From assembly GCA_903911825.1 (NCBI GenBank), contig CAIWFB010000069.1:1-32409 (forward strand): DNA of 32,409 bases, in the 5' to 3' direction. A model generated the notes under the pieces. The model saw nothing but the letters and a program-made list of their open reading frames with translations. It made no database searches and was not told the DNA's origin. The first letter of the stretch is position 1. Each line of letters starts with the position of its first letter. This document shows positions 11,681 to 27,797 of this stretch, one piece after another. The position numbers were made by a program, and so were the translations under genes. Source of the stretch: an uncultured Verrucomicrobia subdivision 3 bacterium. GTDB taxonomy: Bacteria; Verrucomicrobiota; Verrucomicrobiia; Limisphaerales; UBA11358.

Positions 11681-14386
11681 TTGATCACCGACCAAATAGG
11701 CGCCATCACCAGCAGCCCGGCGATTCTGACGGTGGTGGTGGTCTCCAAACCAAGTTTCATTTTGCAACCGCAAAACGTCACCGTGACCAATGGTGGTTCC
11801 GCTAGTTTTACCGTCAGCGCGAGTGGCGATGCCCCGCTTTATTATCAGTGGTATTTCAACACCAATACCCTGCTCGTCAACCAAACGAACACGAGCCTCG
11901 CGTTTGCCAGCGCCACGACGAATAACGTCGGCACTTATCAAGTGGTCGTCACTAATTTTTTTGGCGCCGTCACTAGCAGCCCGGCGCTGTTGACCGTGAT
12001 CACTGCGGTAAAGCCCAGCATTAACTTCCAACCCCAAAGCCTGACGGCAACGAACGGCACCTTTGCCCAATTGACCGTCAGCGCCAGCGGTAGCAGCCCG
12101 CTGTATTATCAATGGTATTTCAACACCAACACTCTGCTGGCTGGGCAGACTGCGACCAATCTGAACTTCGCCAACGTCACGACGAATAACATTGGCGTTT
12201 ATACCGTGGTGATCACCAATGTTGCCGGTGCCATCACCAGCAGTCCGGCCAGCCTGAGCGTTGTCTCCGGTCCCAGCATCACCTCACAACCACAGGGTTT
12301 GAATGTGACGAATGCGGATGCGGCTAATTTCACGGTCACGGTCAATGGCGATAGTCCGCTGAGCTATCAATGGTATTTCAACACCAACACTCTGCTGGCC
12401 GGGCAGACCGCCACCAATCTGTATTTTGCCAGCACCGTCACGAGTAACACTGGTTTTTACACCGTAGTCGTTGCGAATCCGGTGGGGGCGGTCACCAGCA
12501 GTCCGGCGGCACTCAACGTCTCGTCGGCTTCCAAGCCTATCATCACCGCACAACCCGTCGGGCTGACCCTGACCAATGGCGCAATTTCCACCTTCGCCGT
12601 CACGGCAGTGGGCCAGAATCCTCTGAAATACCAATGGTATTTTAACACTAATTTGGTCAGCACGAATCTGCTCGGCATCATTTTGGGCAACAAAACCAAC
12701 AGCACGTTGACGTTCACCAATGTCACGACCAACACCGGCTATTATTCCGTCATCATCACCAACACTTTAGGCAAAGCAACCAGTAGTCCGGCATTACTAA
12801 CCGTCGTTTCCAGACCCGTCATCACGCTCCAACCTCAAAGCGTGACCGTGACCAACGGCGATCCGGTCGGGTTCACCGCCGATGCTATCGGCGCGGGTCA
12901 ACTGCGCTTCCAATGGTTATTCCGCACCAACACCTTGGTTGCGGGGGCCACGAATGCCACGCTCAATTTTACCACCGCCACCACCAATCTGGCGGGCGTT
13001 TATTCACTGCGGGTCACCAATAATTTCGGCGCCGTGACCAGTAGCTTTGCGTTGCTCAACATCATTTCTCCGCCCGCCATCAGCACGCAGCCGCAAAATT
13101 TTGCCGCTACGAATGGTAATCCCGCCAGCTTCTTGGTCGTCGCCACCGGGGGCGGCACGCTCACTTACCAATGGTATTTCAACACCAACAATCCTATCAG
13201 TGGCGAAACCGCACCCAGTCTTAATCTTCCGGCCGTTTCCACCAACGATGCCGGCACCTACACCGTGGTGGTCGCCAACGAACTCGGCGCGATCACCAGC
13301 AGCCCGGCAATTCTCACGGTGTCGCTTAATTCCAAACCTATCATTGTAACCCAGCCGTCCGATCAAACCGTGACTTATAGCAACCTTGCCAATTTTTCGG
13401 TGACGGCGATTGGAAAAAGTCCGCTGACGTATCAGTGGTATTCCAACAATGTCGTGGTCCAAGCATTCGGCGCCGCCAAACGGTTAACGGCCCAAACCAA
13501 TGCCAGCCTCACCTTCACCGCTGGCTTTACCAACGTGAGTTATTATTCCGTCATCGTCAGCAACAGCCTCGGCTTGGCCACCAGCGGCCCGGCGATGCTT
13601 ACGGTCATCGCCGCCCCGCTCATCATTTCCAACCCACAACCGGTCAGCGTGGCCAGCGGCGATGCTGCCAGCTTTAGCGTCGGCGCGCTGGGCGCCAATC
13701 CGTTGAAGTATCAATGGTATTTCAACACCAACTCCGCGCTCACCAACCAGCTCGGCAATCTGCTGGCGGGCCGCACGAACGGCACGCTGGATTTCACCGC
13801 CACCAGCAACGGCTTGGTGGGCCGTTATTCCGTGATCATCACCAACCTCTTCGGGAAAGCCACCAGCAGCCCCGCCTTGCTCTCGCTCGCCGGCGGTTCG
13901 CCGCCCAGCATCACACTGCAACCGTTGAGCCGCACGATTACAAACGGCGCTGCCGTCACATTTCTTTCCGCCGCAAACGGAACCAATCCTTTGAGCTATC
14001 AATGGTTCTTCAACACAAATCAATTCATCGCGGGCGCGACCAATACCACGCTGACTTTCAGCAACGCCAATCAGCCCGGCACCTATTCCATGCGCGTAAC
14101 AAACACCTTCGGCGCCGCCACCAGCACGCCCGCACTGCTCACCGTCGTGGGCCAACCACTGATGCTGACAGCTAGTTTTGATCCTGTCAGCGGCAGCTAC
14201 GCGTTCAGCTACGTTAATCTCGCTGGCAGCACTAATCGTTTGTGGGCCAGCACTAATCTGGCGGCGACAAATTTTTGGCGAGCCATCGCCACGAATGTCA
14301 TGGCGACCAACGCGCTGTGGTTTTTCACGGATGTGAACACGGCCGCAACCAATGCCGCGCGCTTCTATCGTTTCTCAACACCGTGA
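11681..14386 (+). CDS. Ig-like repeat array, 3' part of the frameshifted gene
   Basis: Homology in this frame begins at 11657 (NDAGSYTVLITD), before the nominal TTG at 11681, and there is no signal peptide, so this is not a free-standing gene. It encodes the end of one broken Ig-like domain and then nine complete ones, each with a QPQ..TVTNG strand, a core YQWYFNTN and a G.Y.V.ITN..G..TSSPA end. Two length classes occur: about 84 residues, and about 91 residues in repeats 4, 7 and 8, which carry an extra loop before the T..L.F strand. The last ~75 residues (LMLTASFDPVSGSYAF to ARFYRFSTP) form a C-terminal module like that of the Ig-like protein at 161-1279. Unless the frameshift is an assembly error or is bypassed, this part is probably not expressed as an exported protein. 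Confidence 0.72.
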   Translation: MITDQIGAITSSPAILTVVVVSKPSFILQPQNVTVTNGGSASFTVSASGDAPLYYQWYFNTNTLLVNQTNTSLAFASATTNNVGTYQVVVTNFFGAVTSSPALLTVITAVKPSINFQPQSLTATNGTFAQLTVSASGSSPLYYQWYFNTNTLLAGQTATNLNFANVTTNNIGVYTVVITNVAGAITSSPASLSVVSGPSITSQPQGLNVTNADAANFTVTVNGDSPLSYQWYFNTNTLLAGQTATNLYFASTVTSNTGFYTVVVANPVGAVTSSPAALNVSSASKPIITAQPVGLTLTNGAISTFAVTAVGQNPLKYQWYFNTNLVSTNLLGIILGNKTNSTLTFTNVTTNTGYYSVIITNTLGKATSSPALLTVVSRPVITLQPQSVTVTNGDPVGFTADAIGAGQLRFQWLFRTNTLVAGATNATLNFTTATTNLAGVYSLRVTNNFGAVTSSFALLNIISPPAISTQPQNFAATNGNPASFLVVATGGGTLTYQWYFNTNNPISGETAPSLNLPAVSTNDAGTYTVVVANELGAITSSPAILTVSLNSKPIIVTQPSDQTVTYSNLANFSVTAIGKSPLTYQWYSNNVVVQAFGAAKRLTAQTNASLTFTAGFTNVSYYSVIVSNSLGLATSGPAMLTVIAAPLIISNPQPVSVASGDAASFSVGALGANPLKYQWYFNTNSALTNQLGNLLAGRTNGTLDFTATSNGLVGRYSVIITNLFGKATSSPALLSLAGGSPPSITLQPLSRTITNGAAVTFLSAANGTNPLSYQWFFNTNQFIAGATNTTLTFSNANQPGTYSMRVTNTFGAATSTPALLTVVGQPLMLTASFDPVSGSYAFSYVNLAGSTNRLWASTNLAATNFWRAIATNVMATNALWFFTDVNTAATNAARFYRFSTP
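12107..12399 (+). repeat. Long near-identical direct repeats within the Ig-domain array
   Basis: The same 35 bases (starting TATCAATGGTATTTCAACAC) occur at 12107-12141 and 12365-12399, and the first 24 recur at 13709-13732. They encode the YQWYFNTN core of successive Ig domains. Such blocks can drive recombination, copy-number change and assembly errors. Confidence 0.8.
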
Positions 14387-23728: not shown

Positions 23729-24502
23729 TCACTTCGCCGCCGCACCGAAAACTTGCTTCAACAAATCCGTCGTGCGCGCCAGCGGATTTTCACGGATGCG
23801 TTTTTCCTCCTCGGCCACCATCGTGAATAGCCCATCCAGCGCTTTGTTGGTGACATACGCGTCCACATCCAGGGCGTCGGTGCCAAGATAGCTATTCGCC
23901 AAGCCACCGAGCGCGCCGCCAACACCGCTGCTGCCGCTGACCTTGCCGATCATATTTTTGTAAGCTGCCGTCACCCCGGTTTTGGCCGTGGCGGCTTTGA
24001 CGATGGGATAAAATTTCGCGTAAAGATTCGTCTGCGTCGTGCGGCGGAAAAACTGCGTGGCCGCATTGTTCGTGCCGGTGAGGATGGACTTCGCATCTTC
24101 AATGGACATCTGTTTCACCGCGTCGCCAAACACCGCCGCCGCTTCGGGCACGGCTTGTTCCGCCGCGTGATTCATCGTCGTCACGAATTCATCCGCCAGC
24201 TTGTCTTGCTTGAGTGCGCGCAACGTTTTTTCGACCGACTGCAATTTTTCCGGCAGCGGAATCTTCACCGCCACGTTCGTGAGAAAGCCGCCGTCGTGGC
24301 CGAGTTGTTTGATGGCGTTTTGCAAACCGTTGCCGAGCGCTTCTTTGAGACCACCGGCCATCTGCGTTTGCGAAAGCGCCCCGAGCGCGGCGCTGCCCGC
24401 CGCGGAATTCGTAGAACTTTTTAATCCCAACGCGTCCAACCAGCCAGCCTGAACCGTGCTAATGGCAATCGTAAACGCGAGGGCTAAGATAATTTTTTTC
24501 AT
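23729..24502 (-). CDS. DUF4197-family exported protein
   Basis: The 257-residue protein starts with a clean signal peptide (MKKIILALAFTIAISTVQA, cleavage before GWLD). The mature part matches the DUF4197 pattern: ALGALSQTQMAGGLKEALGNG (~40-60), GFLTNVAVKIPLPEKLQSVEKTLR (~71-95), INHAAEQAVPEA-like MNHAAEQAVPEAAAVFGDA (~110-128), SIEDAKSILTGTNNAATQFFR (~133-153) and TNKALDGLFTMVAEEEKRIR (~215-235). It is periplasmic and predicted helical; the biochemical role of the family is not known to me. ATG at 24502 is chosen because the signal peptide begins there; the frame upstream is open but has no family similarity. No operon partner is on this strand. Confidence 0.85.
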   Translation of the reverse strand: MKKIILALAFTIAISTVQAGWLDALGLKSSTNSAAGSAALGALSQTQMAGGLKEALGNGLQNAIKQLGHDGGFLTNVAVKIPLPEKLQSVEKTLRALKQDKLADEFVTTMNHAAEQAVPEAAAVFGDAVKQMSIEDAKSILTGTNNAATQFFRRTTQTNLYAKFYPIVKAATAKTGVTAAYKNMIGKVSGSSGVGGALGGLANSYLGTDALDVDAYVTNKALDGLFTMVAEEEKRIRENPLARTTDLLKQVFGAAAK

Positions 24503-24690
24503 AAGTGAATATTTGTAGCGTTCCGTGGCGCACAGGCAAACAGCCGCGCGAGGCGTGGTCAAGGTTTCTTCTAGTCTTCCAATATATCGAGCGTGTCCTG
24601 TCTCTGGCACTGATTGTCTCAAACCAGGGCGCTTGGTAGGGATTCACCGCATAGACGCGTTGGCTTGGCTTATGCTAAAAGATCAGGTGT

Positions 24691-26151: not shown

Positions 26152-26940
26152 TCAGAGTGTTGTTCCGTCCGGCTCGGCGAGCAATTCTTTTACGGTGCTA
26201 TGCTTCGCGTATTCCATGGCATCGCTGGAGCCGAGCACAGTGAAATTCTTCTCATCCACCACGGCAAATTTGCGCCGGGGATTTTGCCAAACGCGCAATT
26301 CACTCGTCGTCACCACCAAGGTCATGGGGAGCCCGCCAAACTGCGCGTGGCCGCGTCCGAGTTGCTCCAGAAATTGCAGCATCCAGGCGCGATGCCGTCC
26401 ATCCAAGCCGCCCAGCGGATTATCCAGCAACAGCAATTCCGGCTGTAAGATCAAGGCCCTTGCCAGCGCGGTTCGCTGCCGCCAATTCGCCGCCAGATTG
26501 TTGGGGAGCGCCGTGGTGAACGGAACCAGTTCCAGCAATTCCAGCAATACTTCCACCGCGCGCGCGGTATCCGCATCGGAGAGATCTTTTTGGTAACGCA
26601 ACGGCAGCGCTACATTTTCTGCCACCGTGAGTTGATTGAATAATTTTCCGCCCGCAAACACCAAGCCCACACGCAAGCGATCAGCCAGTTGCGCTTCGCC
26701 AAATTCCCGCGTTTCGCAGCCGAACACGCGGCAACTGCCACGCAGTGGCGTGATCAATCCGGCGGCATGCATCAGCAGATCGGTCTTGCCGGAATGTTGC
26801 GGCCCCGCGACGACCCAAAATTCGCCCGGCTGCACTGACCAATTCACTTCTTCCAAAACAGCAATCGAAGCGTCGCGCAACGCTCCGATGCGTGCGCTGG
26901 TCATTTCGATGACAGCTGGATTGAAAGTGGTTTCGTTCAC
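26152..26940 (-). CDS. mlaF: MlaF-like ABC ATPase with degenerate catalytic motifs
   Basis: By position and fold this is the nucleotide-binding subunit of the Mla-like transporter (262 residues). Walker A is present but atypical (AGPQHSGKTDLL, ~45-56). The Q-loop Gln is replaced (VFAGGKLF, Ala96). The signature LSGGQ is LAANW (149-153). Walker B is LLLLDNPLGG, with Asn174 in place of the catalytic Glu. The switch His is replaced in LVVTTSE (~208-214, Thr). ATP binding may survive, but hydrolysis by the usual mechanism should be weak. It starts with GTG overlapping the permease stop by 4 bases (26937-26940), so it is translationally coupled. The frame is intact, so it is probably a divergent functional subunit rather than a pseudogene. 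Confidence 0.84.
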   Translation of the reverse strand: MNETTFNPAVIEMTSARIGALRDASIAVLEEVNWSVQPGEFWVVAGPQHSGKTDLLMHAAGLITPLRGSCRVFGCETREFGEAQLADRLRVGLVFAGGKLFNQLTVAENVALPLRYQKDLSDADTARAVEVLLELLELVPFTTALPNNLAANWRQRTALARALILQPELLLLDNPLGGLDGRHRAWMLQFLEQLGRGHAQFGGLPMTLVVTTSELRVWQNPRRKFAVVDEKNFTVLGSSDAMEYAKHSTVKELLAEPDGTTL

Positions 26941-27797
26941 GTCAGGAGATACATCACGATGAAAATCGCATCAATCAAGACGCAGACCACGACGCCTTGA
27001 GTCACGGCTTTGACAGCCACGCGCGAGACATCTTCTAAACGCAGCGGTTGAGCCAGCCCGTGATAACAAGTCACGACCGCGATAAAAAACCCGAACGCCA
27101 CCGTCTTCAACGCCAGCAACGCGAAGTCTAGCCAGTTCAATGCGCCCGCGATCTGTTTCAGATAATCACCCGGCGTCAACGGCACGTCTTGCAAGAACGC
27201 GAACAGATAGCCGCTGCCGAGTGCGCCGAGAATGAGATAGATCGTCAGCGAAAAGATTCCCAGCGCCATGCCGATGACGCGGGGCACGATGAGATAATGC
27301 ACCGGATCAATGCCCAACGCTTCGAGCGCTTCCACTTCGCCGAGGGCGCGAGCCGTGCCGAGTTCGATGACGTTTGCCGTGCCCACGCGGGCCAGCACCA
27401 ACATTGCAGTGAGCAACGGACCGAGTTCGCGCACGATGACAATGACCATGGTGGAACCCAGAAAATCAATCTGCCCGACGCGCGCCAAAGCAGAAACAGT
27501 TTGGCCCACGACGACAAACCCCAGCGCCAACGCCACAAAGATGAACAGCGGCATCAGCGCCGCGCCCGAACGGGTGATCTCCTGACGCACTCGCGGCTGA
27601 ATGACGTTGCGCGCTACGCCGAATTTCTTGAGAATAACGCTTAACGTGATGAGCGCAAAGGCTCCCAGCCCTTGCACGGTGAGCAGGCCGAGGAATAATT
27701 TTCGCCCGAGCCGATCCGTGTAAGATTTGGGCACGGCCGCGCGGCGAAACACTTGCGTGTTCGCTAGTTCAAACGCTTTTTCCAGATTACCGCGCAC
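26937..27797 (-). CDS. mlaE: MlaE-family ABC transporter permease
   Basis: This inner-membrane permease of 286 residues belongs to the MlaE/TTG2B family, which moves phospholipid or related lipids with MlaF and MlaD. There are about five to six hydrophobic helices: ~35-55, ~85-107, ~113-137, ~168-195 and ~225-285. The family signature IVRELGPLLTAMLVLARVG (~120-138) is followed by ELGTARALGEVEALEALGIDP. An N-terminal cytoplasmic helix of about 30 residues precedes helix one. The start is a GTG at 27797 with no strong ribosome site; the first helices would tolerate a later start. It is the first gene of the operon and is divergent from ligA with 74 bases between. Confidence 0.9.
   Translation of the reverse strand: MRGNLEKAFELANTQVFRRAAVPKSYTDRLGRKLFLGLLTVQGLGAFALITLSVILKKFGVARNVIQPRVRQEITRSGAALMPLFIFVALALGFVVVGQTVSALARVGQIDFLGSTMVIVIVRELGPLLTAMLVLARVGTANVIELGTARALGEVEALEALGIDPVHYLIVPRVIGMALGIFSLTIYLILGALGSGYLFAFLQDVPLTPGDYLKQIAGALNWLDFALLALKTVAFGFFIAVVTCYHGLAQPLRLEDVSRVAVKAVTQGVVVCVLIDAIFIVMYLLT

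Follow-up and report, generated by a model that had tools for sequence, protein, structure and literature searches.

The nucleotide-binding domain (NBD) of a putative MlaEFD-type MCE lipid transporter, encoded in the window analysed here (the whole stretch of DNA, 32,409 nucleotides long), is probably a conserved pseudo-ATPase. With moderate confidence, we propose that it acts as a non-hydrolysing scaffold in a transporter whose flow would be independent of ATP and presumably downhill. The protein has the Walker A motif GxxxxGK[S/T] and the Walker B Asp, and lacks the signature motif, the catalytic Glu, the Q-loop Gln and the switch His. The system occurs in Verrucomicrobia subdivision 3, a large group of bacteria from soil and water, and is of a kind that connects the two membranes. 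Among the open-access papers searched, we met with no description of a degenerate MlaF, nor of an MlaE-MlaD pair that lacks MlaF.

An intact operon with an altered MlaF-like subunit

The mlaF-like gene (Table 1) starts with GTG, contains zero internal stops and shares 4 nt with the mlaE stop, and mlaD starts 12 nt after it. Pfam recognizes all three genes (ABC_tran, 2.1e-19; MlaE, 1.8e-47; MlaD, 5.2e-10), in agreement with the first-pass annotation, which had placed an intact frame inside an mlaE-mlaF-mlaD operon. The three components by which an Mla transporter is recognized, namely an MlaE-family permease, an MCE-domain MlaD and an MlaF-type ABC subunit, are thus present, and we read the operon as an MlaEFD-type MCE transporter with lipid as its presumed substrate. 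The AF2 model of MlaD contains a TM helix and an MCE domain and is of low confidence past about residue 260; close to its C terminus, MlaD carries a motif like GLKRHWLLR that is common to the MlaD proteins of loci L198, L205 and L212. A gene for a DUF4197 protein (23729-24622, 1.9e-74) lies downstream of the operon on the same strand, and a 901-aa ORF of the window (11681-14386) encodes about nine immunoglobulin-like domains.

The AF2 model of the MlaF-like protein has a mean pLDDT of 93.3 (51 sequences in the alignment). Its top Foldseek match in the PDB is the MlaF of E. coli MlaFEDB (6xbd_I, TM 0.79, 23% identity), and in a second structure comparison MlaF chains again come out on top (7ch8_J, Z 28.9, rmsd 2.1 across 240 residues), with other ABC NBDs trailing by only one to two Z units. 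By these fold matches the protein, as modelled, is an NBD and resembles the MlaF type most closely. The NCBIfam family PRK11831, the MlaF equivalog (curated cut-off 441 bits), is outside the best 25 families listed for it; a canonical paralogue from the same genome scores 207.5 bits against this family, so that the cut-off is uninformative for the phylum.

We assigned the active-site residues by alignment with E. coli MlaF and the two canonical paralogues of the same genome (Table 1). The first-pass annotation had named three substitutions, Ala96 for the Q-loop Gln, LAANW for the signature and Asn174 for the catalytic Glu, and all three are borne out. It was also right about the loss of the switch His, but not about the residue found there: Ser213 aligns with the His, and the Thr that it had named (Thr212) is one residue off. 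Walker A is retained, as had been claimed, in the sense that GxxxxGKT is present, but the customary S48-G49 is replaced by Q-H. The D-loop Asp180 is also retained.

Table 1. Positions of the operon genes and of the residues discussed in the text
Feature	Positions	Strand	Evidence
MlaE permease, 286 aa, divergent third Mla operon	26937..27797	-	Pfam MlaE 1.8e-47
MlaE coupling-helix region TARALGEVEALEALGIDPVHYLIVPR	27279..27356	-	alignment; conserved with degenerate NBD, lost in NBD-less operons
Degenerate MlaF-like ABC NBD, 262 aa	26152..26940	-	ORF, Pfam, alignment, AF2 model
Walker A GPQHSGKTD, residues 46-54, GK[S/T] retained	26779..26805	-	alignment
Ala96 at Q-loop Gln position	26653..26655	-	alignment
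Tyr116, invariant in degenerate clade, mostly Arg in canonical paralogues	26593..26595	-	column conservation
LAANW (149-153) replacing LSGGM signature motif	26482..26496	-	alignment
Walker B Asp173 kept, Asn174 replacing catalytic Glu	26419..26424	-	alignment
Ser213 at switch-His position	26302..26304	-	alignment
MlaD, 417 aa: TM helix, one MCE domain, inserted region, about 150 residues of predicted helix	24886..26139	-	Pfam, AF2

The substitutions are conserved across the clade

Of 146 genomes drawn from the order, 114 have a match to the divergent MlaE at E 1e-25 or better, nearly always a single one. We collected 151 orthologous NBDs from beside this MlaE: 108 in genomes of the order, a further 27 in the genus, and another 16 obtained through a search of the class. 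Where the genomes have names, they are for the most part MAGs with a Verrucomicrobia label, in many cases subdivision 3, Pedosphaera or Limisphaerales; most sequences in this study come from MAGs, and the genomes are drafts. SGG occurs in the signature of none of the 151 orthologues, the Q-loop Gln in 11 and the switch His in 6, while position 174 holds Glu in 9 and Asn in 105. As many as 126 are devoid of all four features that serve hydrolysis, namely the Gly-Gly of the signature, the Gln of the Q-loop, the catalytic Glu and the His of the switch. Walker A retains GK[S/T] in 142/151, and the Walker B Asp173 is present in 150/151. In the canonical MlaF loci of the same order, Walker A, the Q-loop Gln, DEP and the signature are intact in 30/30 (LSGG in 28, ISGG in L007 and L030). 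Because the same positions are altered across the orthologues and intact in every one of these canonical loci, the losses are far beyond chance.

Two other patterns were observed. Locus L205 (genome G154) is intermediate, with the Q-loop Gln and catalytic Glu kept, the signature lost, and a Walker A that reads GPAGAKKS. The MlaF proteins of loci L270-L278 (Fibrobacter and relatives) have an altered signature (LSVGM, LSTGM or LSAGV), with Walker A, Q-loop Gln, catalytic Glu and switch His all intact.

Does this pattern mark an ordinary mlaF that has recently lost its function, in an operon that is itself being lost? As decay would have it, nearly all close pairs show a higher rate of evolution in MlaF than in MlaE, often by a factor of two to three. 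However, the dN/dS of MlaF is 0.10-0.42 over the 14 closest genus pairs, hence below 0.5 in each (MlaE, 0.08-0.22 over the same pairs where both are measurable), the frames are open, and the same losses are found across genus, order and class. The first-pass annotation had suggested asking whether relatives conserve the substitutions, and had regarded canonical residues in close relatives as the sign of decay; we looked for such residues and found the substitutions to be clade-wide. The degenerate mlaF is under purifying selection and is not decaying, and we rejected decay as next to impossible.

The clade has also gained conserved residues of its own, a further point against decay. Columns that are invariant in canonical MlaF vary in the degenerate clade, where Tyr116, Trp34, Trp42, Trp186, Trp218 and Pro113 are new near-invariants and Lys52 and Asp173 rank among the most conserved columns. 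Tyr116 is part of the helix that follows the Q-loop (residues 106-117 of the AF2 model), and we take this helix to face the permease, MlaE, by analogy with ABC NBDs generally. The consensus of this segment is ENxxLPLRYH, and the window protein reads ENVALPLRYQ.

Conserved substitutions could in principle reflect a re-invented ATPase, in which an acidic Q-loop residue stands in for the Walker B Glu, aided by a signature Arg and an acid at the switch position, so that hydrolysis persists. An acidic Q-loop residue is found in 83/151 orthologues and Arg at the first signature Gly in 81/151, and acids at both the Q-loop and the catalytic position are rarer than expected (Fisher p 5e-4), yet the apparent swap between these positions has no support when phylogenetically independent pairs are used (median p 1). 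The tree shows 14-26 changes of each of these states, and neither acid is present in the window protein. We consider such a replacement extremely unlikely.

Relatives without a P-loop or without an NBD

In another class of the phylum, where 80 of 146 genomes were matched at 1e-25 or better (the weaker of these 80 being counted by E-value alone), the gene between mlaE and mlaD still encodes an ABC protein (Pfam ABC_tran up to 3.6e-10; 99.7% by hhalign against the window family). A P-loop is present in 0 of 39 aligned rows of these remnants and an Asp at the Walker B position in 2 of 39, the rows being 9 from a first search and 30 loci from a second, with genomes partly overlapping. ENITLxQRHH, the counterpart of the Tyr116 segment, is among their best conserved segments. 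A P-loop-less ABC remnant also lies beside MlaE in a MAG labelled Gammaproteobacteria (Ww576; L280:4232-4957); either the label is wrong or this type of remnant is wider than the phylum.

Within the window's own class, two genomes (G172 and G199) have no mlaF between mlaE and mlaD: the coordinates show the mlaD start overlapping the mlaE stop (ATGA). A whole-genome profile search found no degenerate MlaF elsewhere in either, only generic ABC matches (3e-37 at best), and the same search detected the degenerate MlaF of two other genomes at 1e-85 and 3e-84. A mislaid mlaF is thus disfavoured in these two drafts, which belong to one genus, are 95 and 99% complete, and are the basis of the NBD-less state described here. 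Two further loci with MlaE alone on its stretch (L225 and L226) were dropped as NBD-less candidates, since each genome has a degenerate MlaF elsewhere and the operon is split.

In E. coli, MlaE makes its contact with MlaF through the coupling helix (PMC7790496). This helix is conserved where the operon encodes a degenerate NBD, while in the NBD-less MlaE proteins it is deleted (L198) or scrambled (L202), so that nature has supplied an evolutionary control. In a quick MlaE tree, with long branches and selective sampling, all sampled MlaE proteins with degenerate partners fall on one side of a branch that separates them from the canonical ones (SH-aLRT 98), which suggests a single origin of the degeneration.

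These observations also bear on whether a canonical MlaF from another Mla operon pairs with the degenerate subunit on the window MlaE and completes the ATP site in trans. The genome has three MlaE genes, and the search for a second, canonical MlaF that the first-pass annotation had called for did turn up two, both of which sit beside an MlaE of their own. Among matches identified down to the third-best, the genome shows no orphan canonical MlaF; the third-best is the CysA of a CysPTWA-like operon (C223). Heterodimeric ABC exporters in which one site is degenerate are a familiar class, TM287/288 among them (PMC5216877). In the present case, however, the degenerate subunit has lost both its Walker B Glu half and its signature half, so both composite sites of a mixed dimer would be incomplete, and the NBD-less relatives have lost the coupling helix and hence the docking site for any NBD. 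Such pairing is very unlikely in our judgement.

A transporter that may have given up its motor

We propose that the degenerate NBD has the fold of an NBD and would dock on the coupling helix of MlaE, and that it probably still binds nucleotide through Lys52 of Walker A and Asp173 of Walker B. With the signature serine-glycines, the Q-loop Gln, the catalytic Glu and the switch His absent from each half of the presumed homodimer, a canonical composite ATP site should be unable to form or fire, and hydrolysis would be absent. The remaining role of the NBD would be structural, holding the MlaE dimer in one conformation. Diffusion down their chemical potential, or some other gradient, would then carry lipids between the inner membrane and the long MlaD. 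Degenerate ABC sites can retain residual activity.

Mutations in E. coli MlaF give a measure of individual losses. Lys47, Thr48 and the signature Ser146 hold the ATP phosphates, and E170Q alone lowers ATPase activity by ~80% and impairs growth (PMC7784689); K47R abolishes both ATPase activity and function (PMC5016091). Lipid transfer from MlaD to MlaC can occur spontaneously without ATP, and hydrolysis is reported to suppress it (PMC10212509). Taken with the motif losses in the presumed homodimer, this transfer leads us to expect a downhill, ATP-independent flow.

The conservation of the Walker A Lys and the Walker B Asp nevertheless exceeds what a passive scaffold alone needs, and nucleotide binding therefore probably still matters in the window's clade. 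The NBD pair might bind and release ATP without hydrolysis, or with very slow hydrolysis, to open and close MlaE, so that flow tracks the nucleotide level. Both GK[S/T] (142/151) and the Walker B Asp (150/151) are under strong constraint, and Lys52, Ser/Thr53 and Asp173 are kept in the window's clade, as such gating would demand. On the other hand, 151/151 orthologues lack the signature residues between which a dimer sandwiches ATP, and related lineages that lack the P-loop or the NBD keep MlaE-MlaD, which means that the group as a whole cannot have gating as its core mechanism. We regard it as unlikely, if still worth considering. Among the three options that the first-pass annotation had offered, passive or non-hydrolytic movement is thus favoured, on account of the Walker-A-less relatives and the operons in which mlaE and mlaD stand with no NBD gene; gating by ATP binding might apply in the window's own clade, and a heterodimer is disfavoured.

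The non-hydrolysing scaffold may be one stage of a stepwise abandonment of the motor, in which catalytic and signature residues went first, then nucleotide binding, and then the NBD together with the coupling helix, leaving a passive or ion-gradient-driven lipid channel between the membranes. Other lineages would be further along this path, having lost Walker A or the whole NBD and coupling helix. We give this scenario an even chance.

Whether Mla and other MCE complexes need ATP, and in which direction lipids move without it, is openly debated (PMC10212509). Bacteria that carry canonical and apparently ATPase-dead Mla systems together, and their NBD-less relatives, are natural versions of the mutants on which that debate turns. 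If the proposal is confirmed, an MlaE-family ABC permease can be useful without its motor.

Comparison with known systems

It is instructive to compare the operon with MlaFEDB of E. coli, P. aeruginosa and A. baumannii (PDB 6XBD, 7CH8, 7D06). Both have MlaE, an MCE-domain MlaD, an NBD of the MlaF fold and a conserved coupling helix; the window NBD differs in lacking the signature, Q-loop Gln, catalytic Glu and switch His, its MlaD is long, and no mlaB or mlaC gene was seen in the operon. The minimal MlaEFD of Veillonella parvula is likewise encoded by a three-gene operon, with an MlaD of 419 aa against 417 aa here and, in both, a long helical region after the MCE domain (in the window MlaD, within the low-confidence part of the AF2 model). 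As differences, the V. parvula MlaE and MlaF are said to resemble those of model diderms closely, and the C-terminal beta-barrel of its MlaD, a long protein proposed to bridge the envelope, is not seen in our low-confidence MlaD model (PMC10665443).

PqiABC and LetAB carry out MCE-protein lipid transport without an ATPase, as we propose here, with the difference that the window operon keeps the ABC permease itself. To our knowledge, the inner-membrane partners PqiA and LetA are unrelated to MlaE. Heterodimers of the TM287/288 type have, like the window system, lost catalytic residues in an NBD that is still under selection; they keep one complete ATP site, whereas both would be incomplete in the presumed homodimer (PMC5216877). 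SbmA and BacA, of the SLiPT family, have no relation to MCE systems and differ in being proton-driven peptide importers, but they provide a precedent for an ABC-type transmembrane domain that works without NBDs (PMC13316013).
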